DNA from: Algibacter sp. | Lineage (GTDB): Bacteria; Bacteroidota; Bacteroidia; Flavobacteriales; Flavobacteriaceae | Direction of reading: 5' to 3' | Length of the DNA: 64,000 bases | Assembly (NCBI RefSeq): GCF_029245835.1 | Contig: NZ_JAQWOO010000027.1 | Coordinates: forward strand, 1 to 64,000 | Shown: positions 5,635 to 21,636 of the stretch, piece after piece | How the letters are laid out: each line of letters starts with the position of its first letter | Numbering within the stretch: the first letter of the stretch is position 1 | Notes under the pieces: model-generated | The model's database searches: none | Told to the model about the DNA's origin: nothing | Seen by the model: only the letters and a program-made list of their open reading frames with translations | Position numbers and translations under genes: made by a program

Positions 5635-6249
5635 ATGAAAATAATTGGGATTGGTAAAAATTACGTAAATGACAAAAGTGACATTAGTGCTCTTAAAACT
5701 GGGAATCAACTTATATTTTTAAAAGCTGAAAGCACTTTGGTAACTGACAATAAGGATATTGCTTTTCCAAAAATTACAAATCAATTAATCTATGAAGTAG
5801 AGTTAGTTGCTAAAATCGGAAAAACGGGTAAAGATATTTCTGAAAATGATGCGGCTTCTTATATTAGTGAAATTGGTATTGGAATAGATTACACAGCCAA
5901 AGATGTTTTGGGTGCCAGTAGAGAAAACAAAGGACCATGGGCTTTAGCTAAAGGGTTTGATGGAGCATCACCTGTAAGTGGTTTTAAATCTATTTCTACC
6001 TTACCAGATTTAAATAACATTAACTTTAGTTTGACCATTAATGGTGAAGAAAAACAGTCTGGAAATACAACCGATATGATTTATAATTTTGTTGAAATCA
6101 TTGCTTTCGTTTCAAAATACATGACTTTAGAACCTGGGGATTTAATTTTCACAGGAACGCCTGCGAGTGGTTCTGGTCAAAATTTTAAAGGCGATCACTT
6201 ACAAGCTTTTATTGAAGGAGAGTTGCTACTAGATTTTAAACTCATATAA
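5635..6249 (+). CDS. Fumarylacetoacetate hydrolase family protein
   Basis: The 204-residue protein is a single FAH-fold domain, slightly shorter than YcgM-type relatives. Seen are the metal-ligand segment YEVELVAKIG (two acidic residues), the third-ligand region GIGIDYTAKD, the catalytic AKGFDGASP loop and the C-terminal GDLIFTGTP signature. Members of the family hydrolyse or decarboxylate 2-oxo or 1,3-dicarbonyl acids such as acylpyruvates or oxaloacetate with Mg or Mn. The gene ends 9 bp before the first nucleotidyltransferase gene of the acetate locus and is probably co-transcribed with it. An acylpyruvate or oxaloacetate substrate would fit central carbon metabolism, but this is inference. 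Confidence 0.9.
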   Translation: MKIIGIGKNYVNDKSDISALKTGNQLIFLKAESTLVTDNKDIAFPKITNQLIYEVELVAKIGKTGKDISENDAASYISEIGIGIDYTAKDVLGASRENKGPWALAKGFDGASPVSGFKSISTLPDLNNINFSLTINGEEKQSGNTTDMIYNFVEIIAFVSKYMTLEPGDLIFTGTPASGSGQNFKGDHLQAFIEGELLLDFKLI

Positions 6250-6258
6250 AATTAATAA

Positions 6259-8175
6259 ATGAAGAATTCTATTGCTGAACGTGTTGGTGATTTTTTAAAA
6301 AACTATCCGCCATTTAATATGGTTAGGGCTAAAAACTTAACAGATCTAGCTTCAGAAATCAACATTATATATTTAGAAAAGGGTAATACCGTATTTAAAA
6401 AAGGAGATTCGACTCATGAGCACTTTTACATTGTTAGAGATGGCGCCATAAGTTCAAATTATAATAATGGCAAAACCATAGAAATCATGAATATTCATGA
6501 TACTGGCGATATCTTTGGTTTAAAACCACTAATTAGTAAAGACACTTATAATCTTACTACAATAGCCAATGAAGAATCTATAGTTTACGCTATTCCCATC
6601 GCGCTTTTTCAATCTATTACAGATAATAATGCTAAGATTCAAAAATACTTAATTACCGCTTTTGCATCCAACACTTACACACCCTATACCGCAGAAGAAT
6701 CTGGTAAAATTTTTGTTGATTATTTACCAAACACCTCTCAAGACATTGTAAACTTTCAAACCGTAAATTACACCAAAGCCCCCATTACTTGCAGTTTAAA
6801 ATCTACTTTAAAAAGTGCTGCTAAAAAAATGTGTAAGCATAAAATTGGATGTATCATTGTGGTAGATGAAAACAAAAAACCTGCTGGTATTATTACAAAT
6901 AGTGATATAAAAAACAAAATTGCAACGGGTCTATTCCCTATAGACACTAGAGTAACTAATATTATGAATTCTCCAGTAATCACAGGGAAAAAAGATTTAA
7001 CAGTTGCTGATGGACAATTACAAATGATAAAAAATAACATTGGTCATTTGTGTATTACAAAAGATGGATCTATTAATTCGAAATTGATAGGTGTACTTTC
7101 GCATCATGATGTTTTGGCTACTCTAGGAAACAATCCTTCTGTAATTTTAAAAGAAATAAAACGAGCAAAACGCACAAAAAAACTACGTGCTACCAGACGT
7201 AAAGCTAATGGCCTCTTAAAAAGTTATTTAGAACAAAACATTCCCATATCACATATTATTAATGTGATTTCACAAATTAATGACGCTGTTACCATTCGCG
7301 CTATTGAATTGGCAATAAAAAAAATGCCCACACCTCCTCCAGTTACATTTTCTTGGTTGGCTCTAGGCAGCCAAGGTAGAAAAGAACAGTTGCTTTTTAC
7401 GGATCAAGACAATGCTTTGGTTTTTGAAGATGTCCCAGAAAAAAAACGTGAAGAAACGCAAACTTATTTTTTAGAGCTTTCAAATTTAATAACCCAAACA
7501 CTCAATAAAATCGGATTTGAATACTGTGAAGCCGATATGATGGCGAGTAATCCGGAATGGTGCAAATCTTTATCCGAATGGCAAAACCAATTTAAAAAAT
7601 GGATTTTAAAACCCGATGAAAAAGCTATTTTATTATCATCCATATTCTTTGATTATAACTGTGTTTATGGCAACCAAGAATTAATAAACAAGTTAACGGA
7701 TACTGTTTATAATACTTTACAAGAAACTACTTTGTTTTTTAGATTCTTAGCAAGTGATGCTATAAAAAGCCCTTCTCCTCTTGGTTTTTTTAGACAATTT
7801 TTAATAGAGCAAAATGGTGAACAGAAAGAGCTTTTCAATATAAAAAGTAGAGCTGTTATGCCTCTGGTAGATGCAGCAAGGTTACTTATTTTAAGTAAAC
7901 AAATACGAGGTGTTAATAATACTTATGAACGCTTTGAAAGATTGGCGCAACTAGAACCTGAAAACAAAGAATTATATGAATCTTGCTCCTATGCTTTTAA
8001 AGCACTTTCCAAGTTTAAAACAAAACAAGGTCTGTTGCATAATAACTCTGGAAAACTAATTGATTTAGAGACCTTGACCAAAGAAGAAAAGTTAAAACTA
8101 AGACGTTGTTTTAAGCCTATACAGGAAATTCAAGAGATTTTAAAAATTAGATTTGATTTAAAAAACTTTATTTAA
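6259..8175 (+). CDS. cNMP-binding/CBS/DUF294 putative nucleotidyltransferase, copy 1
   Basis: The 638-residue soluble protein has four parts: a cyclic-nucleotide-binding beta-roll (about 10-140), two CBS motifs (about 175-225 and 235-290), a DUF294 nucleotidyltransferase core (about 320-460) and a helical DUF294 C-terminal domain (about 490-635). The core has the GlnD-like Gly-Ser pair in LGSQGRKEQ (370-371) and the DxD of TDQDNA (382 and 384), so it looks catalytically intact. In other bacteria this family is encoded beside acetyl-CoA synthetase and acetate symporter genes, as here. It is followed 2 bp later by a DnaQ-fold exonuclease. It presumably senses nucleotides and transfers a nucleotidyl group to an unknown target; the target is not predictable from sequence. 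Confidence 0.85.
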   Translation: MKNSIAERVGDFLKNYPPFNMVRAKNLTDLASEINIIYLEKGNTVFKKGDSTHEHFYIVRDGAISSNYNNGKTIEIMNIHDTGDIFGLKPLISKDTYNLTTIANEESIVYAIPIALFQSITDNNAKIQKYLITAFASNTYTPYTAEESGKIFVDYLPNTSQDIVNFQTVNYTKAPITCSLKSTLKSAAKKMCKHKIGCIIVVDENKKPAGIITNSDIKNKIATGLFPIDTRVTNIMNSPVITGKKDLTVADGQLQMIKNNIGHLCITKDGSINSKLIGVLSHHDVLATLGNNPSVILKEIKRAKRTKKLRATRRKANGLLKSYLEQNIPISHIINVISQINDAVTIRAIELAIKKMPTPPPVTFSWLALGSQGRKEQLLFTDQDNALVFEDVPEKKREETQTYFLELSNLITQTLNKIGFEYCEADMMASNPEWCKSLSEWQNQFKKWILKPDEKAILLSSIFFDYNCVYGNQELINKLTDTVYNTLQETTLFFRFLASDAIKSPSPLGFFRQFLIEQNGEQKELFNIKSRAVMPLVDAARLLILSKQIRGVNNTYERFERLAQLEPENKELYESCSYAFKALSKFKTKQGLLHNNSGKLIDLETLTKEEKLKLRRCFKPIQEIQEILKIRFDLKNFI

Positions 8176-8177
8176 AA

Positions 8178-8837
8178 ATGATTAAATGGTTTAGAAAAAA
8201 TAAAAAAAAGTATCCAGATTTCTGGAACGCCTATATTGACCATTTTGATACTATTGAAAAAACGCCTATTAATGAAACTAGATTTGTAGCTTTTGACACG
8301 GAAACTACTGGTTTTGATATTTTAAAAGACAGAGTTTTATCTATTGGAGCTGTCGCATTTAAGGGAAAATCTATCCCTGTAAATGATAGTTTAGAATTAT
8401 ACTTAAAACAAGATATTTTTAATCGTGATTCTGTTGAAATTCATGAAATAATAAAAAGTAGTACCGTTGATAAGGTTACGGAATTAGAAGCTATTAAAAT
8501 ATTCTTATCCTATATAAAAAATGCTGTATTAATTGCGCATCATTCTAATTTTGATAAAAACATGATGAATGAAATGCTCTCTAGACATGGTTTGGGGAAA
8601 CTAAAAAACAAATTTATAGATACAGGCGTATTATTTAATAAATCGAAGCACATTATTTATCATGAAAATCTTAAAGATCACTACTCTTTGGATGATTTAT
8701 GTAAAGCACTTAATGTACCTAAAGTAGATAGACATACCGCCAGTGGAGATGCACTTATAACCGGTATTGTATTTTTAAAGATTTTATCGCGTTTGGATAA
8801 ACGTAAACATTTACAATGGAGTTATTTACTCAAATAA
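8178..8837 (+). CDS. DnaQ-fold 3'-5' exonuclease, copy 1
   Basis: The 219-residue protein is a DEDDh exonuclease. Exo I is VAFDTETTG (D40 and E42), exo II lies in the IAHHSNFDKNMM segment, and exo III is DRHTASGDA, which supplies the catalytic His and Asp. A short N-terminal tail with YPDFWNAYIDHF is shared with the paralog at 11106. The gene starts 2 bp after the DUF294 nucleotidyltransferase stop, indicating tight coupling. It has no polymerase or PHP domain, so it is not a classical replicative epsilon subunit. The repeated pairing suggests that it removes something the nucleotidyltransferase adds, or trims a small RNA; this is inference. Confidence 0.85.
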   Translation: MIKWFRKNKKKYPDFWNAYIDHFDTIEKTPINETRFVAFDTETTGFDILKDRVLSIGAVAFKGKSIPVNDSLELYLKQDIFNRDSVEIHEIIKSSTVDKVTELEAIKIFLSYIKNAVLIAHHSNFDKNMMNEMLSRHGLGKLKNKFIDTGVLFNKSKHIIYHENLKDHYSLDDLCKALNVPKVDRHTASGDALITGIVFLKILSRLDKRKHLQWSYLLK

Positions 8838-8843
8838 GACCTA

Positions 8844-9088
8844 TTATAATTTAATATCTCTTTTATTCCCAATCTGTAGCCATTTATAAATCCTAGGTTG
8901 CTGTGGCTTCACTTTCAGTTAAGCTAATATGTAAAATGATATTACCTGGACAAGCTTTTACTGGATTTCCCTTATAAAATGATAAATCAACATTACCACC
9001 TTTACTTGAACTACTGTACAACTAAATAAGGCTAATTCAGAAAAAATTAACAAAATAAAAATAAAGAATGACGTTTTAATATTAACAT
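8844..9088 (-). pseudogene. Decayed small lipoprotein gene
   Basis: The 374-bp gap between the two nucleotidyltransferase modules holds the remains of a minus-strand gene. Spread over three frames are a lipoprotein signal (KTSFFIFILLIFSE followed by LFSC), a middle part (SSKGGNVDLSFYKGNPVKAC) and a tail (KPQQPRIYKWLQIGNKRDIKL then stop). At least two frameshifts separate them, and the only ATG (9086-9088) is out of frame with the signal. I see no recognisable family. The remaining sequence up to 9211 should contain the promoter of the second module; a weak -7 match TATGTTTG is at 9135-9142. Confidence 0.5.
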
Positions 9089-9211
9089 GGTTTAATCTAA
9101 AAACCAGATGTTTTATAATAACTTAATCCACTTTTATGTTTGAAAGTGTAGCAGTTAAAACTCATTAAGTTGTTAGCTTCATCTTATTCTATTTTTTATT
9201 AAATTGCTTGT

Positions 9212-11101
9212 ATGAATACCATAGCAGAGCGCATCTTTGATTTTTTAAAGGACTTCCCTCCTTTTAGTATGTTATCCCGAGAACAATTACTCGCTATTTG
9301 CAAATCTGTAGAGGTACATTACTTAGAGAAAGACACCAATTTGTTTGTCGCTAAAAACCCAGTAAAGAATCAATTCTACGTTGTAAAAGATGGAGCTATT
9401 GGATTATTTCGAGAAGACTCTAACACATTAGTTGATAAATGTGATGAAGGTGATATATTTGGATTACGGGCACTAATGCGTCAAGATGATTACAAACTAA
9501 CTGCAAAAGCTATAGAAGAAACCATAGTATATAGTATTTCTTCAGAATTATTTAAAGAGTATATCACTACGAATCCTGAAGCCAGTACGTATTTAATGTC
9601 AAGTTTTGCTACTAATACAACTTACATAGAATCTAACCCTTTACAAAACCAGAACTCAACTGATAATATTCCAGATTTTTTTGAAGAACAATCTGCCTCT
9701 TATTCTAAAAACCCAGTGAGTTGCCTTTTGAATACAAGCATAAAGGAAGCTGCTCTTGAAATGACCGATAAACGTGTAGGCTCAATTATAATTACCGAAA
9801 ACAATAAGCCCTTAGGCATAATTACAGATAAAGACTTAAGAACTAAAATAGCCACAGGCCTTATTTCAATACAGGAAACTGTTGAAAAAATCATGTCGTC
9901 TCCTGTTATTACTTATCCGGAAAATATTACCGTAGCCGAAGCTCAAATTGCCATGATTAAGAATAAAATCACGCATTTATGTATTACAAAAGATGGCACT
10001 CCGAACTCGGACTTAAAAGGGGTTTTATCAGAACATGATATTGTGGTTATTCGAGAAAACAATGCTTCGGTTTTAGTAAAAGAAGTAAAGCGCGCCACTA
10101 CGCCAAATCAATTGCAACACATTCGTAAACGTGCGCATGAAGTATTAAAGCGGTATATAAAACAACACATACCAATTACATTTGCCACCAAAATAATATC
10201 TGCTATGAATGAAAGTATCACGCAACGCATCATAGATTTAGCTATTAAAGGCATGGCTACACCACCTCCAACATCTTTTAGTTGGATTGCGATTGGTAGT
10301 CAAGGCCGTGAGGAACAGTTGCTTCTAACAGATCAAGATAACGCCCTAGTTTTTAATGATGTTCCAGAGGAAGCATATGAAAGTACTCAAAATTATTTCC
10401 TGAAGCTATCAGAGAAAATTACAACGAGTCTAAACATTGTCGGGTTTGAATTTTGTCCTGCAGAAATGATGGCAAGCAATCCTAAATGGTGTTTATCCTT
10501 ATCTCAATGGGAAACACAATTTAAAGAATGGATTACCAAACCAGATCAAGATAACCTTATGTTGTGTACCATTTTTTTTGATTTCCAACATATTTACGGA
10601 GATGAAACATTAGTAAATTCTATGGCAAAAGGAATTTTTGAATCCATCGATTCCTATGAAATATTTTTAAATTTTTTAGGTCTGAATGCTTTAAAAAACC
10701 CACCACCTCTAAGCTTTTTTAGACAATTCTTAGTAGAAAGTGATGGCGAACATAAAGATCAATTCGACATTAAAGGGCGTGCTATGATGCCTCTAGTTGA
10801 TGCTGCCAGATTATTAGTTTTATCAAAAAACATAAAAACTAATAATACTATAATTCGATATGAAAATCTCGCTAGCGCTGAACCGCAAAACAAAGACATC
10901 TATTTAGCATGCCGAGATTCTTTTAAAAAACTACTTCGATTTAGAACCGAACAAGGCATACTTCATAACGATTCTGGAAGATTTATTGATTTACAAAAAC
11001 TCAGTAAAGCTAATAAGTTAGAATTGAAAAGTTGTTTTAAAGCGATTAAGGACGTACAAGATTTAATTCAAACGCGTTTCCAACTTGCTCAATTCATGTA
11101 A
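9212..11101 (+). CDS. cNMP-binding/CBS/DUF294 putative nucleotidyltransferase, copy 2
   Basis: This 629-residue paralog of the protein at 6259 has the same order: cNMP-binding roll (about 10-135), CBS pair (about 170-285), DUF294 core and DUF294 C-terminal domain. The catalytic features IGSQGREEQLLLTDQDNALVF are retained, including Gly-Ser and DxD. The two copies are clearly related along their whole length (shared AERxxDFLK, GDIFGL, PPPxSFxW, MASNPxWC and FRQFL segments) but much diverged, so the duplication is old. It is again followed directly by a DnaQ-fold exonuclease. Divergence in the cNMP and CBS regions suggests different ligands for the two copies; the CBS ligand is probably an adenine nucleotide. 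Confidence 0.85.
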   Translation: MNTIAERIFDFLKDFPPFSMLSREQLLAICKSVEVHYLEKDTNLFVAKNPVKNQFYVVKDGAIGLFREDSNTLVDKCDEGDIFGLRALMRQDDYKLTAKAIEETIVYSISSELFKEYITTNPEASTYLMSSFATNTTYIESNPLQNQNSTDNIPDFFEEQSASYSKNPVSCLLNTSIKEAALEMTDKRVGSIIITENNKPLGIITDKDLRTKIATGLISIQETVEKIMSSPVITYPENITVAEAQIAMIKNKITHLCITKDGTPNSDLKGVLSEHDIVVIRENNASVLVKEVKRATTPNQLQHIRKRAHEVLKRYIKQHIPITFATKIISAMNESITQRIIDLAIKGMATPPPTSFSWIAIGSQGREEQLLLTDQDNALVFNDVPEEAYESTQNYFLKLSEKITTSLNIVGFEFCPAEMMASNPKWCLSLSQWETQFKEWITKPDQDNLMLCTIFFDFQHIYGDETLVNSMAKGIFESIDSYEIFLNFLGLNALKNPPPLSFFRQFLVESDGEHKDQFDIKGRAMMPLVDAARLLVLSKNIKTNNTIIRYENLASAEPQNKDIYLACRDSFKKLLRFRTEQGILHNDSGRFIDLQKLSKANKLELKSCFKAIKDVQDLIQTRFQLAQFM

Positions 11102-11105
11102 TATA

Positions 11106-11750
11106 ATGTGGTTTAAAAAGAAAACATATCCTGAGTTTTGGACACGCTACCTCAATCATTTTAAATCAACAACAAATAAAGATTTTGACAATCAACGATT
11201 TTTAGTTTTTGATACCGAAACCACAGGATTGGATATTAAAACAGATCGCATACTTTCTATTGGTGTTATAGCTGTTCAAGGACAAATTATTAAAGTTTCT
11301 GACAGCTTTGAATGCTATGTAAAACAAAATATTTTTAATTCAGAAACCATAAAAATACATGGCTTATTAAAAGGCGGTAACATCACGAAAGCAGAAGAGT
11401 CTGAAGCTATCAAAGCATTTTTGGAATATATAGGAAATGCTGTTTTAGTTGCACATCATGCCGCTTTTGATATTGCTATGATTAACGCTGCATTAAAACG
11501 TATGAACTTACCCAAACTGAAAAACAAAGTTGTTGATACTGGCGAACTTTATAAAAAAACAAAATATGTTAAAGACCACAAGCATTATAGCCTAGATGCC
11601 TTAAGCAACATTTTCAATATTCCACAACACGACCGACATACGGCTTCTGGAGATGCGTATATCACTGCGCTACTTTTTCAAAAATTATCTTCGTTGTTAC
11701 AGAAAAAGAAAAAGGGTTTGAAGTTGCGTTATTTTTTTGATTGGATATAA
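11106..11750 (+). CDS. DnaQ-fold 3'-5' exonuclease, copy 2
   Basis: The 214-residue DEDDh exonuclease has exo I LVFDTETTG (D36 and E38), exo II around VAHHAAFDIAMI and exo III HDRHTASGDA. It is the paralog of the protein at 8178, and both share the YPEFW motif near the N terminus. The frame is open from a TTG at 11085 inside the upstream gene, but the ATG at 11106 (MWFKKKTYPEFW), 4 bp after that stop, matches the paralog start and was chosen. A terminator follows at once, closing the plus-strand operon before the convergent acs gene. Substrate unknown; no polymerase domain. Confidence 0.85.
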   Translation: MWFKKKTYPEFWTRYLNHFKSTTNKDFDNQRFLVFDTETTGLDIKTDRILSIGVIAVQGQIIKVSDSFECYVKQNIFNSETIKIHGLLKGGNITKAEESEAIKAFLEYIGNAVLVAHHAAFDIAMINAALKRMNLPKLKNKVVDTGELYKKTKYVKDHKHYSLDALSNIFNIPQHDRHTASGDAYITALLFQKLSSLLQKKKKGLKLRYFFDWI

Positions 11751-11796: not shown

Positions 11797-13704
11797 TTAC
11801 AACACATTATCCATAATATCCTGAACAACTTCTGGATTTAATAGCGTACTAGTATCGCCTAAATTACTGGTATCGTTACTCGCAATTTTTCGTAAAATAC
11901 GACGCATAATTTTACCAGAACGTGTTTTCGGTAAGCCGTCTGTAAACTGAATTTTATCTAGTTTAGCAATCGGTCCTATTTGCTCCGTTATAATTTGGTT
12001 TATCTCCCTACGCAAATTGTTATGATCACGACTTTCACCTGTTTCTTTCAAGGTTACATAACCATACAATGCGTTTCCTTTTATATCATGTGGGAAACCT
12101 ACAATAGCACTTTCTGCAACTGCTGGATGCTCGTTAATAGCATCTTCGATTGGCGCAGTGCCTAAGTTATGTCCGGATACAATTATTACATCATCCACAC
12201 GACCCGTAATTCTATAATAGCCTACTTCATCACGTAAAGCACCATCACCTGTAAAATATTTATTGTCGTAAGCCGAAAAATAAGTGTCTTTGTAGCGTTG
12301 GTGATTACCCCAAATGGTTCTTGCCATACTCGGCCAAGGGTATTTTATACACAATCGTCCATCCACTTGATTTCCTTTTATTTCTTCGCCATGTTCATCC
12401 ATTAAAGCGGGCTGTATTCCAATAAACGGAAGTGTCGCATAGGTTGGTTTCGTTGGAGTTGCAAATGCTATTGGCGTAATCATGATACCTCCTGTTTCGG
12501 TTTGCCACCAAGTATCGACAATGGGCGATTTTTTCTTTCCGACGTTATCATCGTACCAGTGCCAAGCCTCTTCATTGATTGGCTCTCCAACAGTTCCCAG
12601 AACTTTTAGCGAGGATAAATCATGCTTTTCTAAATGCTCTACACCTTCTTTTGCTAATGCACGAATGGCTGTGGGTGCGGTATAAAATTGGTTGACTTTA
12701 TGTTTTGCTACGATTTCCCAAAAACGTCCAAAATCTGGGAAATTTGGTACGCCCTCAAACATAATTGTTGTCGCTCCATTACATAACGGACCGTAAACAA
12801 TGTAGCTATGCCCTGTAATCCAACCTATATCTGCTGTACACCAATACACATCTTCTTCACGGTATTGAAATACATTTTTAAATGTATAAGCAGTATACAC
12901 CATATAACCAGCTGTTGTATGCACCATACCTTTTGGTTTTCCTGTGGAACCCGAGGTGTATAAAATAAATAAAGGATCTTCTGCATCCATAATTTCTGGA
13001 GCACAATCGTGGTGCGCAGCATCTAACAACGGTTGCAACCATTTGTCGCGCCCGTCTTTCATATGAATGTCCGTATTGATACGTTTTGCAACTAAAACAG
13101 TATCTACACCAGGGCAATCTTCTAAAGCCTCATCCACAATACCTTTTAAATCGATGGTTTTTGAACCACGATAAGAACCATCGCTAGTAATTACCATTTT
13201 ACAATCGCTATCGTTAATTCTAGTAGCTAAAGCCGTTGATGAAAACCCAGCAAAAACGACCGAATGTATGGCTCCTATACGTGCACATGCCAAAACAGAA
13301 ATAGCTAATTCTGGAATCATTGGTAAATAAATACAAACTCGATCGCCTTTACCTACGCCATTATCTTTAAGCACATTAGCAAATCTGCAAACTTTCTCAT
13401 GCAGTTCTCGGTAGGTAATATGTTGTGCTTTTTCTTCTGGACTATTGGGTTCAAAAATAATAGCGGTTTTATCGCCTCTGGTATATAAATGTCGGTCGAT
13501 ACAGTTTTCGGTAATATTTAATTTGGCACCTTCAAACCATTTTATTTCTGGTTTTGCAAAGTCCCAACTTAATACCTTATCCCATTTTTTTCGCCACATG
13601 AAATGCTCTTCGGCTATTTCTTCCCAAAAAGTTTCTGGGTTTCTGACAGATTTACGATAAACTTGGTAATATTCTTCTAAGTGTTTTATGTGGTAATTAC
13701 TCAT
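11797..13704 (-). CDS. acs: Acetyl-CoA synthetase (AMP-forming)
   Basis: The 635-residue enzyme activates acetate to acetyl-CoA through acetyl-AMP in the cytoplasm. It has the full set of ANL-family motifs: phosphate-binding loop YTSGSTGKPKGM (A3), WWQTETGG (A5), the YFTGDGA and GRVDDVIIVSGHN hinge region (A7/A8) and the C-terminal PKTRSGKIMRR (A10). The last contains the catalytic lysine, which is the usual target of regulatory acetylation. Length is normal. It is surrounded by acetate uptake and sensing genes, which firmly supports acetate over propionate as substrate. It converges with the exonuclease gene. The 13705-13902 upstream spacer holds one dispersed repeat and presumably the promoter. 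Confidence 0.97.
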   Translation of the reverse strand: MSNYHIKHLEEYYQVYRKSVRNPETFWEEIAEEHFMWRKKWDKVLSWDFAKPEIKWFEGAKLNITENCIDRHLYTRGDKTAIIFEPNSPEEKAQHITYRELHEKVCRFANVLKDNGVGKGDRVCIYLPMIPELAISVLACARIGAIHSVVFAGFSSTALATRINDSDCKMVITSDGSYRGSKTIDLKGIVDEALEDCPGVDTVLVAKRINTDIHMKDGRDKWLQPLLDAAHHDCAPEIMDAEDPLFILYTSGSTGKPKGMVHTTAGYMVYTAYTFKNVFQYREEDVYWCTADIGWITGHSYIVYGPLCNGATTIMFEGVPNFPDFGRFWEIVAKHKVNQFYTAPTAIRALAKEGVEHLEKHDLSSLKVLGTVGEPINEEAWHWYDDNVGKKKSPIVDTWWQTETGGIMITPIAFATPTKPTYATLPFIGIQPALMDEHGEEIKGNQVDGRLCIKYPWPSMARTIWGNHQRYKDTYFSAYDNKYFTGDGALRDEVGYYRITGRVDDVIIVSGHNLGTAPIEDAINEHPAVAESAIVGFPHDIKGNALYGYVTLKETGESRDHNNLRREINQIITEQIGPIAKLDKIQFTDGLPKTRSGKIMRRILRKIASNDTSNLGDTSTLLNPEVVQDIMDNVL

Positions 13705-14262: not shown

Positions 14263-14628
14263 TTAAGCTAATAGTTCCATAATTTCTGAAACTAGTTTTT
14301 TTACTGAAAAAGGTTTGGTTAAATATTTATCTGCTCCAAGTTTTAAACCCTTTTCAATATCTGAAGCTTTATTTTTTGCAGTTAAAAACACCACTTTGGT
14401 ATCCTTTAAACTGTCTGTATTTTTAATTTGCTTTAAGGTTTGATAACCATCTACATTTGGCATCATAATATCTAATAAAACCACGTTAGGAATATGATGT
14501 TTCAATATCTCTAAAGCCTCACTTCCGTCTCTTGCAATAAACACTTCAAAATCTTGTTTTTTGAAGGTATATTCTAATGACATCACTATGTTTGGCTCAT
14601 CATCAACAATTAAAATTTTCTTCTTCAT
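14263..14628 (-). CDS. Receiver-only response regulator
   Basis: The 121-residue protein is a single CheY-like receiver domain. It has the acidic pair D9/D10, phospho-acceptor D53 in LLDIMMPNVDG, T83 and K105 of the LTKPF motif, so all residues needed for phosphorylation are present. There is no output domain. The gene begins 5 bp after the stop of the SSS-type sensor kinase and is almost surely its partner. In Vibrio and Pseudomonas the matching regulator CrbR has a LuxR-type DNA-binding domain and activates acs; here that domain is missing, so the signal must act by protein contact or pass to another factor. Confidence 0.9.
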   Translation of the reverse strand: MKKKILIVDDEPNIVMSLEYTFKKQDFEVFIARDGSEALEILKHHIPNVVLLDIMMPNVDGYQTLKQIKNTDSLKDTKVVFLTAKNKASDIEKGLKLGADKYLTKPFSVKKLVSEIMELLA

Positions 14629-14633
14629 TATTA

Positions 14634-17336
14634 TCAGGTTACAATGTACTTAAAAGGTATGGTAAAAACAAGCGTTGCGCCATTTTTTACACCTTTTTTT
14701 GCCCAAATTTCTCCGTTGTGTTTTTCAATAATTTGCTTGGTTATTGCTAAGCCCAAGCCACTACCCTGTGGTTTAATTGTGTTTTGATGTTTTGATTGGT
14801 AAAACTTATCGAAAATATAATCATGATCTTCCTCTGGAATCCCTTTACCATTATCGGTTACAGAGATTTCTATGCGTTCATTTCCTAATTTATAATCGAC
14901 TGTAATTTTACCTGTTTTCGGAGTGCAAAATTTAATCGCATTTGACAGTAAATTGGTTAGTACTTGAAGGATGCGATCTTCATCATAATTAGTTTTAAAA
15001 GTATGTACATTATTGTTAATGACTTTCACCTCTTTTTTTACTGCAATTTGCGAAATACTACTAATGGCTTTTGTAATGGTTTTTTGAATATCATTATAGC
15101 CAAAATCTAAATTTAAACGTCCGGTTTCTAGTTTTTCAAAATCTAAAATATTATTAATTAAACGCCCCAACCGGTCGGAATCTTGAAGAATATTTTTTAA
15201 GAATTGTGCTTTCATCTCTTTTGGCATATCATCCTCCTCATCCATTAACAACTCTGTCGCGGCACGAATACCAGTAATTGGTGTTTTAAGTTCGTGGGCA
15301 ACGGTGTCTAAAAATTCATCTTTTTGTTTGTCTTTAGAAATTAATTCTTGGTTTACATCTTTTAGTTTTGACGATAGCTGTGTTAACTCATTGGACTTTT
15401 CTAACAAAACTTTATTGCTTACAATGTTTTCTTTAGATTCTTCTAAAATCTTTAGCACTTCAACCAAACTAATCTGCTCTTCTTTAACCACACTAGCTAT
15501 TAATATTTTTGCCGATGCAGAACCAATACTTCCTGTTAGTAATTTTTCAGAAAAATTAATCAATCGTGCATCTGCTAGTTGCGTGTCTTGAGGTAATTTG
15601 TATTTAGTAAAGAAGATATTTAAAGCCCGAGTAGCTCTTTTTTCACCTAAAAAACGAACAAGTACATTTTTTATATCTGCCACATAAGCCTCACCTTTCC
15701 AAACCAAAGCACTATCCTGAAGGGTTGAAAAGTTTCGGCTATCCACAAACATTTCGGCATAATTACGTTCGCGATAATTACCTTTGGATGTCAATGAAAA
15801 AGTTAAGTAACACAGCAAATTAAATGTCATACTCCAGAAAAAGGCATGAGCCGGTGGACTTAAAAAATCAATTCCAAATAGCGCATAGGGTTTTAAGATT
15901 GAAATACCTAGCAATCCATTTTGCGTAAAATCATCAGTTCCTGTATACGCTTGCAATGTAAATGGCAATACCAACGTGTAAAACACAATACAAAAACCAA
16001 CAATCATTCCAGTAATAGCTGCCTTTGACGAACCACGATTCCAGAATAAACCTATAAAAAATGCCGGTGCTAATTGAGCAATTATTACAAAGGAAATCAA
16101 TCCGATAGCATACAGCGATAATTCTCTAGAAAAAGACACATAGAAGAAGTAGGCTACAATAATAATAGTGAAGATAGAAATACGACGAATATTTTTAATG
16201 TACTTCGAGTTTCGTTCGGGTTGATTTTTTATGAATTTATCTAAAAAACCATAAGGAATAATTAAGTTATTACTTACCATAGTGGATAAGGCTAAAGTTG
16301 AAACGATAACCATTGAAATGACTGCAGAAAAGCCGCCAAGAAACACGAGTGTCGCTAAAAAGGAATTTCCATTATTTAACGGGAGTAATAAAGTGTAATA
16401 TTCTGCATTTTGTGTGCTTCCAAAAGTAAGTTTTCCAGCCCAAGCGATAAAAATAACAAAAACATTGAATAGCAATAAATACAACGGAAATAGCCAAATT
16501 GCTTTTTTTAAATGCTTCTCTCTGTTGTTTTCTAAAACCGAAACTTGAAATTGTCTTGGTAATAAAAAGATAGCCATAAAAGATAAAGCAATCATGAAGA
16601 ACCAATTAAAACCTTCTTCCACACCTCCAAGCGTAGTGAGTTGTTTGAAGTTTTCAGCATCCGACATTTTGTTATAAATATCTGAAGTACCATCAAATAG
16701 GTAGAACGTAATATATACACCTATGATTAAAAAGAATACCAACTTTAAAACTGACTCGAATGCTACTGAAGCAATAATTCCTTTATGTTTTTCTGAAGCA
16801 TCTGTTTTTTGTGTACCAAAAAAGGCAGCAAATATGGCTAGAAGTAATGCCACATAAAACGTTGAATCATCTATGACAGCTGTAGAAATATAACTGGTAT
16901 CGTCAGACATGATTTCAAAAGTTTCAGACACGGCTTTTAGCTGTAACGAAATATAAGGCAGCGTACCAAACAAGCAAATAATAGTTACCAGAGCTCCTAA
17001 AAATCTGTTGTTTCCATAGCGTAAAGAAATAAAATCTGCAATGGATGAAATTTTATGTTGTTTAGAAATTCTTATGATTTTTCTAAGTACAATAATCCAT
17101 AACGGTGCTGCAATTACTGGCCCTAAATAAATGGGCAAAAAATTGATGCCTGTATTTGCGGCAATTCCAATACTACCATAATAGGTCCAAGCAGAACAGA
17201 ACACCGCTAAAGACAAAGTGTACACGTATGGATTATTAACCCACTTACTTTGTTTTTTCCTTTCTGCCAGAAAAGCAATGTAAAACAACACTGCTAAATA
17301 GATAATTATTATGACTATTAAAGCGTAATTATTCAT
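14634..17336 (-). CDS. CrbS-like sensor kinase: SSS symporter, STAC and histidine kinase
   Basis: The 900-residue inner-membrane protein begins with a sodium:solute symporter domain of about 13 helices (about 1-500). A STAC linker follows (about 545-630, with KLLTGSIGSASAKILIASVV), then a coiled coil and a histidine kinase. The kinase has H-box TVAHELKTP (His681), N-box LLSNAIKF, G1 DNGKGIPEE and G2 GSGLGLAIT. This architecture matches CrbS, which activates acetate use genes in gammaproteobacteria. It overlaps the upstream 64-aa membrane gene by 8 bp and precedes the receiver gene by 5 bp. It probably senses acetate or a related acid; whether it also transports is unknown. Confidence 0.9.
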   Translation of the reverse strand: MNNYALIVIIIIYLAVLFYIAFLAERKKQSKWVNNPYVYTLSLAVFCSAWTYYGSIGIAANTGINFLPIYLGPVIAAPLWIIVLRKIIRISKQHKISSIADFISLRYGNNRFLGALVTIICLFGTLPYISLQLKAVSETFEIMSDDTSYISTAVIDDSTFYVALLLAIFAAFFGTQKTDASEKHKGIIASVAFESVLKLVFFLIIGVYITFYLFDGTSDIYNKMSDAENFKQLTTLGGVEEGFNWFFMIALSFMAIFLLPRQFQVSVLENNREKHLKKAIWLFPLYLLLFNVFVIFIAWAGKLTFGSTQNAEYYTLLLPLNNGNSFLATLVFLGGFSAVISMVIVSTLALSTMVSNNLIIPYGFLDKFIKNQPERNSKYIKNIRRISIFTIIIVAYFFYVSFSRELSLYAIGLISFVIIAQLAPAFFIGLFWNRGSSKAAITGMIVGFCIVFYTLVLPFTLQAYTGTDDFTQNGLLGISILKPYALFGIDFLSPPAHAFFWSMTFNLLCYLTFSLTSKGNYRERNYAEMFVDSRNFSTLQDSALVWKGEAYVADIKNVLVRFLGEKRATRALNIFFTKYKLPQDTQLADARLINFSEKLLTGSIGSASAKILIASVVKEEQISLVEVLKILEESKENIVSNKVLLEKSNELTQLSSKLKDVNQELISKDKQKDEFLDTVAHELKTPITGIRAATELLMDEEDDMPKEMKAQFLKNILQDSDRLGRLINNILDFEKLETGRLNLDFGYNDIQKTITKAISSISQIAVKKEVKVINNNVHTFKTNYDEDRILQVLTNLLSNAIKFCTPKTGKITVDYKLGNERIEISVTDNGKGIPEEDHDYIFDKFYQSKHQNTIKPQGSGLGLAITKQIIEKHNGEIWAKKGVKNGATLVFTIPFKYIVT

Positions 17337-17690: not shown

Positions 17691-19457
17691 CTAATGGTCT
17701 GAAGCCTCCCCTGCTCCTGAAGGTATTCTGATACTTTCTACCATATCTTGAACATCTTGCGGTGGTGCTGGAGTTAATCTTGAAACTACAACAGAAATTA
17801 CAATATTTACACACATGGCAATAGTACCAAAGCCTTCTGGAGATGTTCCAAACCACCACTCATCACTTGTACCGCCACCAAACATATCAAGTTTAAACTT
17901 CATCATATAAAATAGCATGAGTACGATACCTACTACCATTCCTGAAATAGCACCTTGGCTGTTCATGCGCTTATCAAATATCCCTAAAATTATAGCTGGG
18001 AAAAATGAAGCTGCTGCGAGACCAAATGCGAGCGCGACCACTGCGGCGACAAATCCTGGCGGATTAATACCAAAATAACCTGCAATTAAAATCGCTACAA
18101 AAATTGCAATTCTTGCTGCTGTTAATTCTGCTTTATCTGAAATATCTGGCTTAATTTGTTTTTTAATTAAATCGTGAGAAATTGAAGTAGAAATCACCAA
18201 AAGTAATCCTGCGGCTGTAGATAATGCTGCGGCAAGTCCACCAGCAGCCACCAAAGCAATTACCCAATTTGGAAGATTAGCAATTTCTGGATTTGCAAGT
18301 ACCATGATATCTCTATCTACATACAATTCATTCTGAGCAGTATTGGCATTCGAAATCATACGTTCTCCATACGTGCCTCTTGCTTCCGTGTAAACTGGTT
18401 TTTTACCTTCTAAAGCACTTCCTGCTACATATTGAATTTTACCATCTCCATTTTTATCAGCCCAAGCAATTAAACCTGTATTTTCCCAGTTTTTAAACCA
18501 TTCTGGAATATCGGTATACGATTGATTACTTACCGTTTCAATTAAATTAGTTCTTGAAAATACTGCAATTGCTGGTGCCGTTGTATATAAAATTGCAATT
18601 AACAATAAAGCATAACCTGCCGATTTACGGGCATCTTTTACTTTAGGCACGGTAAAGAAACGTACAATTACATGAGGTAATCCTGCAGTCCCGGTCATTA
18701 ATGCTAAGGTAATAGCGAATACATCCCAAGTAGATTTTGTTCCGCTTGTATATTCGTTAAACCCTAATTGAGTATGTAATTTATCAAGCTTATCTAATAA
18801 AAATTCACCACCTTCAACCGAACCTCCCATACCAATTTGAGGAATGATATTTCCTGTCATTTGCATAGAGATAAAAAATGCTGGCACCATAAAAGCAAAA
18901 ATTAACACACAGTATTGTGCTACTTGTGTATAGGTGATACCTTTCATGCCACCTAATAACGCAAAGGTTAAAACCACTGCCATTCCGATGATTACACCTA
19001 AATTAATATCTACTTGTAAAAATTGAGAAAACACAATTCCAACGCCACGCATTTGACCTGCCACGTACGTAAATGATACGATTAATGCACAAATTACTGC
19101 AACTGTTCTTGCTGTGTTTGAGTAATATCTATCTCCTATAAAATCTGGCACAGTAAACTTACCAAACTTACGTAAATACGGTGCTAAGAGTAATGCAAGA
19201 AGCACATAGCCACCGGTCCAACCCATAAGATATACTGAGCCATCATAACCTGCAAAGGAAATGATACCTGCCATACTAATAAAGGATGCGGCACTCATCC
19301 AATCGGCAGCTGTAGCCATACCGTTTGCTAATGGAGAAACGCCTCCACCAGCGACGTAAAATTCTTTTGTTGAGCCCGCTCTGGCCCAAATTGCAATTCC
19401 GAAATATAAGGCAAAAGTAATCCCTACTAATAACCAAGTCCAAGTTTGTACACTCAT
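17691..19457 (-). CDS. actP: Cation/acetate symporter, ActP-like
   Basis: The 588-residue inner-membrane protein is a sodium:solute symporter with about 13 helices. N-terminal family features are WARAGSTKEFYVAGGGVSP and MATAADWMSAASFISMAG. A water-exposed insertion of about 80 residues (around 310-390) contains DKNGDGKIQYV, which resembles an EF-hand calcium loop. The upstream DUF4212 gene is the usual ActP partner, and acs and a CrbS-like kinase are adjacent, so acetate or short monocarboxylate uptake is likely. A spacer of 125 bp separates it from the DUF4212 gene with no gene visible in it. The substrate is assigned by context. Confidence 0.88.
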   Translation of the reverse strand: MSVQTWTWLLVGITFALYFGIAIWARAGSTKEFYVAGGGVSPLANGMATAADWMSAASFISMAGIISFAGYDGSVYLMGWTGGYVLLALLLAPYLRKFGKFTVPDFIGDRYYSNTARTVAVICALIVSFTYVAGQMRGVGIVFSQFLQVDINLGVIIGMAVVLTFALLGGMKGITYTQVAQYCVLIFAFMVPAFFISMQMTGNIIPQIGMGGSVEGGEFLLDKLDKLHTQLGFNEYTSGTKSTWDVFAITLALMTGTAGLPHVIVRFFTVPKVKDARKSAGYALLLIAILYTTAPAIAVFSRTNLIETVSNQSYTDIPEWFKNWENTGLIAWADKNGDGKIQYVAGSALEGKKPVYTEARGTYGERMISNANTAQNELYVDRDIMVLANPEIANLPNWVIALVAAGGLAAALSTAAGLLLVISTSISHDLIKKQIKPDISDKAELTAARIAIFVAILIAGYFGINPPGFVAAVVALAFGLAAASFFPAIILGIFDKRMNSQGAISGMVVGIVLMLFYMMKFKLDMFGGGTSDEWWFGTSPEGFGTIAMCVNIVISVVVSRLTPAPPQDVQDMVESIRIPSGAGEASDH

Positions 19458-19582: not shown

Positions 19583-19843
19583 CTATTCGTCGAAACCGTA
19601 TTTTTTATCTAATTTGTTCATTAATCTTACGTATACGAAAATTAGAATTACGAATACATAAATTGAACCTTGCTGTGCAAACCAGAATCCTAGTTTAAAG
19701 CCACCAAGTCTAATTTCATTTAAAGCTTCTCTAAATAAAATTCCACAGCCATAGGAAACTATAAACCAAATACTTAGTAATACTACTAAATACTTAAGGT
19801 TTACCTTCCAATATGCTGTTGCGTGTTTTTGTTTTTCTGACAT
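19583..19843 (-). CDS. DUF4212 membrane subunit of the acetate symporter
   Basis: The 86-residue protein has two membrane helices (about 17-38 and 53-74) with a cytoplasmic N terminus. The family signature is YWKVNLKYLVVLLSIWF followed by GFWFAQQGSIYVFVILIFVYVRLMN at full length. DUF4212 proteins are encoded directly upstream of ActP-type symporters in many bacteria and are thought to be a small subunit. Here the symporter follows on the same strand. The gene starts 25 bp after the porin stop, so porin, DUF4212 and ActP look like one transcript. Confidence 0.9.
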   Translation of the reverse strand: MSEKQKHATAYWKVNLKYLVVLLSIWFIVSYGCGILFREALNEIRLGGFKLGFWFAQQGSIYVFVILIFVYVRLMNKLDKKYGFDE

Positions 19844-21216: not shown

Positions 21217-21636
21217 CTAATCTTTAAAACGCTCCCATTTTATAAGCATAAACTTATCTCCCAACTCGGTAACAACGACGCCTGCTCCTTTTATATTTTC
21301 AACCTTGGCAAAGTAATTTGCCAGCTCCATAGCATTTAATATTTTATAGGTTGGATGGTAATTAGAATTATAAGGGCGTTTAATGTTATATTTCTTAACC
21401 CAATTCATAATACTAACATGCGAAATACCTAATATCCATTCTATCTCACGATAGGTTAAGCCTTCTAAATACAACTGAAGTGATTTGTTTACATAATAAT
21501 CGTCAATCTTCTTTCCAATTTTATTAACTGAAAAAAAATAGTTGCATTTTTTACACTTGTAACGCTGTCTATTTTTAATAACACCACTTTTTATGTAATG
21601 GTCTGAACCACAGTTAGGACACAAATCAATTTTCAT
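21217..21636 (-). CDS. Zinc-ribbon/HTH protein related to IS1 InsA, probably a regulator
   Basis: The 139-residue protein has a transposase-type zinc ribbon (CPNCGSDH at residues 6-13 and CKKCNYFF around 28-35), then a helix-turn-helix LTYREIEWILGISHVSIMNWVKKY (about 60-82). A 40-residue C-terminal part (MELANYFAKVENIKGAGVV) has no DDE catalytic domain. There is no InsB frame, terminal inverted repeat or target duplication nearby. I read it as a DNA-binding protein that has left the IS1 family rather than an active element. It lies upstream of the porin-ActP operon on the same strand, so it may regulate acetate genes, which would supply the output missing from the receiver-only regulator. Confidence 0.65.
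   Translation of the reverse strand: MKIDLCPNCGSDHYIKSGVIKNRQRYKCKKCNYFFSVNKIGKKIDDYYVNKSLQLYLEGLTYREIEWILGISHVSIMNWVKKYNIKRPYNSNYHPTYKILNAMELANYFAKVENIKGAGVVVTELGDKFMLIKWERFKD

Follow-up and report, generated by a model that had tools for sequence, protein, structure and literature searches.

Why should a gene for a putative nucleotidyltransferase be followed at once by a gene for an exonuclease, twice in a row, next to a gene for acetate activation? This question is raised by a 64,000-nucleotide stretch of Algibacter sp. DNA (the window; contig NZ_JAQWOO010000027.1, positions 1-64,000, assembly GCF_029245835.1), which was compared with loci elsewhere, designated by L-numbers. The first-pass annotation of the window had described a protein with cyclic-nucleotide-binding-like (cNMP-like), CBS and DUF294 domains followed by a DnaQ-fold exonuclease, occurring twice, and this order is confirmed, with gaps of 2 bp and 4 bp measured from the open reading frames:

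6259-8175, + strand: DUF294 protein 1, 638 amino acids, with a cNMP-like domain, a CBS pair, a GlnE-type nucleotidyltransferase and DUF294_C
8178-8837, + strand: DEDDh exonuclease 1, 219 amino acids, five catalytic residues intact
8838-9211: spacer between the pairs, 374 bp, A+T-rich (26.5% guanine plus cytosine, GC)
9212-11101, + strand: DUF294 protein 2, 629 amino acids, of another clade (with L091, L115, L113 and L128)
11106-11750, + strand: DEDDh exonuclease 2, 214 amino acids, catalytic residues intact (start taken as the ATG at 11106; an alternative TTG lies upstream at 11085)

Both large proteins match cNMP_binding, two CBS domains, DUF294 (E-values 1e-46 and 5e-44) and DUF294_C (7e-26 and 1.5e-27) in Pfam, with PF03445, PF10335, the CBS pair and cNMP_binding all over the curated cut-offs, and both small proteins are RNase_T exonucleases (2e-22 and 8e-27). 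E. coli RNase T, to which we return below, is a DEDDh enzyme. The sequences bear out the active-site residues noted at first, i.e., Gly-Ser and DxD in the transferases and the exo I Asp-Glu and exo III His-Asp in the exonucleases: in pair-1 numbering, G370 S371, D382-x-D384 and D465 of the DUF294 protein and D40 E42, D126 and H186 D191 (DEDHD) of the exonuclease are intact in both copies. The two DUF294 proteins are 49% identical and the two exonucleases 51%. Almost certainly, a single conserved module of two genes is present here in two copies that have diverged.

This module is common in two phyla. PF10335 was found in 64 of 198 sampled Bacteroidota genomes (61 over the cut-off) and in 108 of 249 sampled Pseudomonadota genomes (100 over the cut-off). 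The set of related loci included the best 80 of 591, and for Pseudomonadota 60 regions plus short loci were used, from among the matches listed. Across 80 Bacteroidota regions, the exonuclease comes immediately after DUF294 in 61 and lies upstream of it in L072, L073 and L077; the upstream order also occurs in the Hymenobacter locus L154. Loose linkage in other genomes had been named as the finding that would speak against a functional pair, and the linkage proved tight: with all sources taken together, a nearby exonuclease accompanies 233 of 264 distinct DUF294 proteins and is absent for 27, the other 4 lying at a contig edge, and the two genes are within 30 bp of each other in 170 of 224 measured loci. 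Exonucleases at L072, L073, L151, L204, L313, L327, L343, L360 and L382 were supplied by a six-frame search. The pairing spans the two phyla plus one Chloroflexota locus. At exo II, Glu replaces Asp in 64 of 67 single-domain Pseudomonadota exonucleases, and Asp is found in 13 fused exonucleases (described below) and in those of the window. The pair itself is already published.

The fold of the DUF294 core suggests a class of reaction. A full-length model of DUF294 protein 1 (predicted local distance difference test, pLDDT, 89) mostly matched structures of cNMP and CBS domains, and the core (residues 290-638) was therefore folded alone with AlphaFold2 (pLDDT 93.5). Its best match is the N-terminal, nucleotide-removing half of E. 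coli GlnE (1v4a, Z 27.2, root-mean-square deviation (rmsd) 2.9, 309 residues aligned), followed by the C-terminal, adding half (3k7d, Z 26.2, rmsd 3.1, 307 aligned) and by DrrA (6yx5, Z 25.5, rmsd 3.8, 304 aligned). Next in the ranking, which covers the families among the matches listed, come DrrA fragments (Z 12.8 and 11.4) and, at about 9, HEPN toxins, Csm6 and aminoglycoside enzymes, and Foldseek alone placed only 1v4a, 3k7d and 6yx5 at E <0.001. A sequence search for a solved structure of the core gave none (best E 0.043). The predicted core thus matches protein AMPylases far above other nucleotidyltransferases, and its nearest solved relatives nucleotidylate proteins, although a shared fold in a model is by itself no proof of DUF294 activity. 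The nucleotidyltransferase prediction goes back to Aravind and Koonin (1999), as cited in PMC5715377, and the grouping of DUF294_C with the C-terminal domain of GlnD and GlnE is likewise in print (PMC3710099).

The sensor domains point to a probable input. Control by both cyclic nucleotides and CBS ligands had been supposed. The phosphate-binding cassette of a domain that binds cyclic AMP (cAMP) or cyclic GMP (cGMP) carries a Glu and an Arg. In both window proteins the Glu is absent, with Leu at position 88, and the Arg was not seen by eye at the expected place in either cNMP-like domain; at position 88, the five commonest letters of 82 Bacteroidota rows exclude Glu, which is found in 17 Pseudomonadota rows. 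CBS domains bind adenine nucleotides, through a motif G-x-x-S/T-x-x-D. Protein 1 has GIITNSD and GVLSHHD, with S/T and Asp kept in both, and the Asp is retained in 159 and 156 of 171 rows. Because the cassette Glu is missing, the Arg was not seen and the CBS motifs are kept, adenine nucleotides are more likely as the input than cAMP or cGMP, so that the CBS half of the supposed control stands and the cyclic-nucleotide half is doubtful. A divergence of the sensors between the two copies had also been proposed. By domain, proteins 1 and 2 are 40% identical in the cNMP part, 52% in CBS, 55% in the nucleotidyltransferase and 54% in DUF294_C, and thus only the cNMP part, not CBS, is clearly more diverged.

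We propose the following mechanism. The DUF294 protein would sense the nucleotide state of the cell through its CBS pair and transfer a nucleotide, adenosine or uridine monophosphate (AMP or UMP), to a protein hydroxyl in the linked transport system, whereupon uptake would fall. The exonuclease would then hydrolyse the phosphodiester of the protein-O-linked nucleoside monophosphate (NMP), the type of bond that it would cut at the 3' end of RNA or DNA, releasing NMP and restoring uptake. The cycle would resemble that of GlnE and GlnD, with a separate DEDDh exonuclease in place of the removal carried out by the second nucleotidyltransferase domain of GlnE. The writer/eraser chemistry of the pair has close to, though short of, an even chance of being right. 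The broader claim, a widespread reversible protein-nucleotidylation switch for Na+-coupled uptake, with a GlnE-fold writer and a DEDDh eraser that is sometimes part of a membrane-helix protein, is put forward more tentatively.

The direction of catalytic loss fits this proposal. Of the 264 DUF294 proteins, 252 were scored; the 4 at a contig edge were dropped, as were 4 whose exonuclease is truncated or unclear and 4 from short loci in which a more distant exonuclease could go unnoticed. DxD is lost in 0 of the 217 that have an intact exonuclease and in 6 of the 35 whose exonuclease is absent or damaged (Fisher p 5e-6, counted naively with kinship ignored). An intact eraser without a writer was therefore not seen among the 252 scored, while a writer without an eraser was. 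The clearest case is L325, where the DUF294 protein, 82% identical to that of L208 (a locus with both partners intact), has lost both Asp and the exonuclease its exo III Asp.

Published mutants also fit. According to PMC9927547, pp_0354 (CBS domain protein) and pp_0353 (RNase_T) of P. putida KT2440 form an operon whose promoter is bound by ErdR, and the PAO1 and KT2440 genes are termed homologues. Deletion of either gene did not affect growth on 20 mM acetate, whereas growth on pyruvate was slowed by deletion of pp_0353 or actP-I but not of pp_0354 (PMC9927547). The same paper quotes transposon fitness data in which pp_0353 and actP-I are associated with growth on 5 mM acetate, a concentration at which its own strains did not grow. 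In P. fluorescens, the effect on acetate was negligible when either actP or pflu5625, which encodes cAMP-binding, CBS and nucleotidyltransferase domains, was deleted (PMC5715377). The pyruvate asymmetry would follow from an inhibitory writer and an activating eraser, since loss of the eraser would leave the target modified and loss of the writer would leave it active.

For the removal step there are chemical precedents. A DEDDh oligoribonuclease cleaves p-nitrophenyl thymidine monophosphate (pNP-TMP), a phenol ester (PMC6390093), the bond of which resembles the one in a tyrosyl-nucleotide. The nuclease RNase Z, whose fold is different, strips AMP from SelO-modified proteins, and in the same report E. 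coli RNase T failed to deAMPylate SelO substrates (PMC12663964). In view of these two precedents and of the failure of RNase T, removal of a nucleotide from a protein by an exonuclease is possible but not general. Among the papers listed by the literature searches, none was recognised as assigning a demodification role to a DnaQ-type exonuclease or as connecting the pair with BCCT transporters.

The genes around the window pairs suggest where a target might be sought:

5635-6249, + strand: FAA-hydrolase-family gene, ending 9 bp 5' of pair 1
11797-13704, - strand: acs, for acetate-CoA ligase (match to TIGR02188 above its cut-off), pointing towards pair 2 (convergent)
14263-14628, - strand: response regulator, receiver domain only
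14634-17336, - strand: histidine kinase with an SSF (SLC5) domain, CrbS-like
17691-19457, - strand: sodium/solute symporter, VC_2705 family (TIGR03648)
19583-19843, - strand: small hydrophobic protein, resembling DUF4212-annotated genes beside symporters in Ruegeria and Skermanella

In the kinase, SLC5 is fused to HisKA and HATPase, as in CrbS-type acetate sensor kinases, while the adjoining regulator has a receiver domain alone by Pfam, where a CrbR-type partner would be DNA-binding. The symporter is the sole TIGR03648 match over the cut-off among the matches listed for the Algibacter genome. Farther along, at 21217-21636, lies a small protein that by eye has a zinc-ribbon-like N-terminus and a helix-turn-helix look, possibly a transposase-type fragment.

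Elsewhere in Bacteroidota and Pseudomonadota, Na+-coupled symporters from several families (SSS, BCCT) adjoin many pairs, and many others show none. Within seven genes at 169 loci, a VC_2705/ActP-type symporter was counted 46 times, a DUF4212-type gene 45, BCCT 39 and acs 38, with neighbour-cluster identities resting on annotated or scanned example loci. DUF485-actP lies beside the pair in P. aeruginosa and Microvirga; an SNF-family symporter is 3.3 kb from the pair in L181 and adjoins exonuclease-less DUF294 genes in L065, L066, L069 and L070, the last with DxD lost. In Vibrio penaeicida the locus contains an SSF symporter, a TRAP transporter and a polysaccharide-lyase-7 gene, and the Hymenobacter pair sits in a glycoside-hydrolase locus. 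With such BCCT, SNF and other contexts, and with acs within the fetched region at just 26 of 61 Bacteroidota pair loci, acetate is not supported as the common process, and acs was rejected as a common target. The transporter label changes once on the DUF294 tree (39 BCCT and 51 SSS rows; the remaining 81 of 171 rows carry neither label). Transporter type thus follows DUF294 lineage, which would suit a lineage-specific partner and equally plain inheritance. By hand count, a VC_2705 symporter over the cut-off is present in 29 of 34 family genomes with PF10335 vs 34 of 66 without.

Several observations weigh against the proposed switch. The tree needs four DxD losses only, and with so few independent events an independent-pairs test cannot reach 0.05. 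In 29 DUF294 proteins DxD is intact without an intact exonuclease, so the eraser is often dispensable. In L103-L110 the exonuclease is catalytically damaged yet kept, mostly with Ser and Asn at the exo I Asp and exo III His. The failure of RNase T on SelO substrates (PMC12663964) counts on the same side. As for the target, at 54 of 81 Bacteroidota loci neither acs nor a symporter labelled SSS or BCCT is in the vicinity, the symporter-adjacency counts are raw, and five of the 34 PF10335-bearing family genomes have no symporter over the TIGR03648 cut-off. In a comparison of 42 rows, covering part of the symporters listed, no VC_2705 symporter column cleanly splits the 26 pair-genome rows from the 16 no-pair rows. 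The symporter as an obligatory target was rejected, with five family genomes managing without it and no discriminating residue; that the symporter module is the target at all is doubtful. The writer/eraser idea gains support from the tight pairing, the AMPylase-like core, the direction of loss, though with few events, and the fitting mutants.

Among other explanations, the exonuclease might degrade RNA independently, e.g., mRNA for transport or the tricarboxylic acid cycle, with a co-regulated DUF294 protein doing another job. The P. putida authors themselves suggest mRNA decay, leaving other mechanisms open, and the pyruvate phenotype comes, of the two genes, from exonuclease deletion only (PMC9927547). 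The 27 of 264 DUF294 genes without an exonuclease nearby would also be expected of separate roles. Such independence sits poorly with so tight a pairing over two phyla plus one Chloroflexota locus, with the retention of damaged exonucleases next to DUF294, and with the count of active exonucleases beside a DxD-less DUF294 protein (0 of 217), and RNA decay is considered fairly unlikely.

Alternatively, the exonuclease may be mainly a partner or antagonist of a DUF294 protein that itself adds and removes the nucleotide, as the halves of GlnE do. The removing half of GlnE heads the structural matches, level with the adding half, and exonucleases that have lost catalytic residues persist in L103-L110 and, probably, at L365 and L391. 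Since L103-L110 keep damaged copies, the exonuclease could be important as a protein partner as well. The DUF294 motif of this flavobacterial clade is DQDS, not DQDN, and at L108 the second Asp is also lost. The damaged genes include, e.g., L104:10149-10745, and 5 of the 8 genomes carry a second pair elsewhere. Against a role chiefly as partner, the five catalytic positions are all intact in 217 of the 233 exonucleases found nearby (exo II Asp to Glu counted as kept), which makes it unlikely.

Several alpha- and betaproteobacteria have the exonuclease fused, as C-terminal domain, to a longer protein (450-961 amino acids in all); at least two membrane helices are predicted in 11 of 13 such proteins by a hydropathy scan, and 2 of 4 scanned have a PAS match. 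Examples are L223:13235-15373, L148:10320-11759, L225:2015-4900 and L234:12731-14797, where the exonuclease has the look of a sensor's output domain. In L223 and L225, the stretch that separates PAS from the exonuclease resembles, by eye, a decayed kinase core. A membrane protein of ~172 amino acids occurs in seven loci (L148:9799-10317, L223:12023-12535 and others), lies between DUF294 and the fused exonuclease in L148, L223, L228, L231 and L233, and gave no Pfam match in the two copies scanned. Judged from their sequences, these fusions argue against action on generic DNA only. An output domain fused to membrane helices or PAS is an architecture familiar from messenger-degrading enzymes. Together with the general knowledge that CBS domains bind adenine nucleotides, the fusions would suit a DUF294 protein that makes a free nucleotide messenger or short oligonucleotide controlling transport, degraded by the exonuclease as cyclic dinucleotides are by their phosphodiesterases. 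The core is far nearer to the protein-modifying GlnE and DrrA than to any listed nucleotide- or RNA-extending enzyme, and a messenger is judged improbable. That DUF294 extends an RNA, e.g., a tRNA, by one nucleotide or a short tail, which the exonuclease then trims, is very improbable: pol-beta-type enzymes are generally known to include tailing enzymes and DEDDh enzymes RNA trimmers, but the structural ranking favours GlnE and DrrA, and no RNA gene is prominent among the identified neighbour clusters, which are a part of all clusters.

It remains to ask why the window has two pairs. Duplication in place followed by divergence had been assumed, and it fails: the approximately unbiased test (30 rows per protein, picked from 82 DUF294 and 63 exonuclease rows) refuses sisterhood of the copies for both proteins (p 5e-41 for DUF294, 4e-4 for the exonuclease), as do the trees. 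In the DUF294 tree of 82 proteins, copy 1 falls with L134, L138 and L135, all sharing the FAA-hydrolase neighbour (a gene also found 5' of the pair in the relatives L129 and L132-L139), and copy 2 clusters with L091, L115, L113 and L128. The exonuclease tree (63 rows) places copy 1 likewise and copy 2 near L091, L113, L111 and L128 with weaker support. Close relatives of copy 1 have a single PF10335 match per genome, and in L132, L133 and L136-L139 the pair ends at most 0.3 kb from a convergent acs. With the copies in separate clades and the relatives of copy 1 carrying one pair by acs, pair 1 is probably the usual copy of this lineage, and a second, older pair sits between exonuclease 1 and acs.

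Pair 2 may have come either by transfer or by survival from an old paralogue, and GC content gives no clear foreign signal. At L111 a pair is found together with porin, DUF4212, ActP, kinase and regulator genes, and the ActP of this locus is the sister of the window ActP (support 99*, 20 rows). Because the nearest rows of a wider ActP set include genomes whose DUF294 belongs to other clades, transfer of pair 2 with the ActP, kinase and porin set is not claimed. Adjacent double copies are rare: PF10335 is present in 34 of 100 sampled genomes of the family, twice only in that of the window, and the phylum sample contains five other genomes of the same family with two copies, at separate places. 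Elsewhere, two DUF294 genes in one fetched stretch occur only in L205, L365, L375 and L385 (169 + 98 loci). L365, L375 and L385 have two divergent DUF294-exonuclease pairs next to a symporter gene, with one L365 exonuclease looking degenerate. The doubled pairs of this symporter/acs locus could act on separate targets or respond to separate signals.

The eraser proposal, which was not met for this pair in the literature found, concerns proteins whose PF10335 domain is common in Bacteroidota and Pseudomonadota and for which that literature reports no tested function. If true, it would add DnaQ-type exonucleases as an enzyme class to protein demodification, explain why cells grow poorly on pyruvate when they lose the exonuclease but not when they lose the partner encoded upstream, and place a post-translational layer above the CrbS/R acetate switch.

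Among the nearest known systems are the P. putida pair pp_0354/pp_0353 and its P. aeruginosa homologues beside actP and yjcH (the MxtR/ErdR = CrbS/CrbR regulon), which have the gene order of the window pairs. The P. aeruginosa pair L151 (plasmid pHOU1-1), located behind DUF485-actP, aligns lengthwise with window pair 2 at 23% and 28% identity. Unlike the window, the Pseudomonas locus has one pair and another small symporter subunit, and no eraser role is put forward in the papers found on it. With SelO and RNase Z, there is a precedent for the removal of protein AMPylation by a nuclease (PMC12663964), but both writer and eraser are of other folds than DUF294 and DEDDh. DrrA/SidM, an AMPylase that acts on Rab proteins as a secreted effector, has the core fold predicted for DUF294 (Z 25.5), whereas DUF294 would be an operon-encoded bacterial regulator. 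With GlnE and GlnD, DUF294 protein 1 shares, in predicted models, the GlnE-type nucleotidyltransferase with a helical C-terminal domain and, as proposed, the job of reversible nucleotidylation. However, no second nucleotidyltransferase half, HD or ACT domain was found in the DUF294 proteins by Pfam (E 0.001), and they are therefore not filed as GlnE or GlnD; their sensors are cNMP-like and CBS domains, and removal of the nucleotide would fall to a separate exonuclease.

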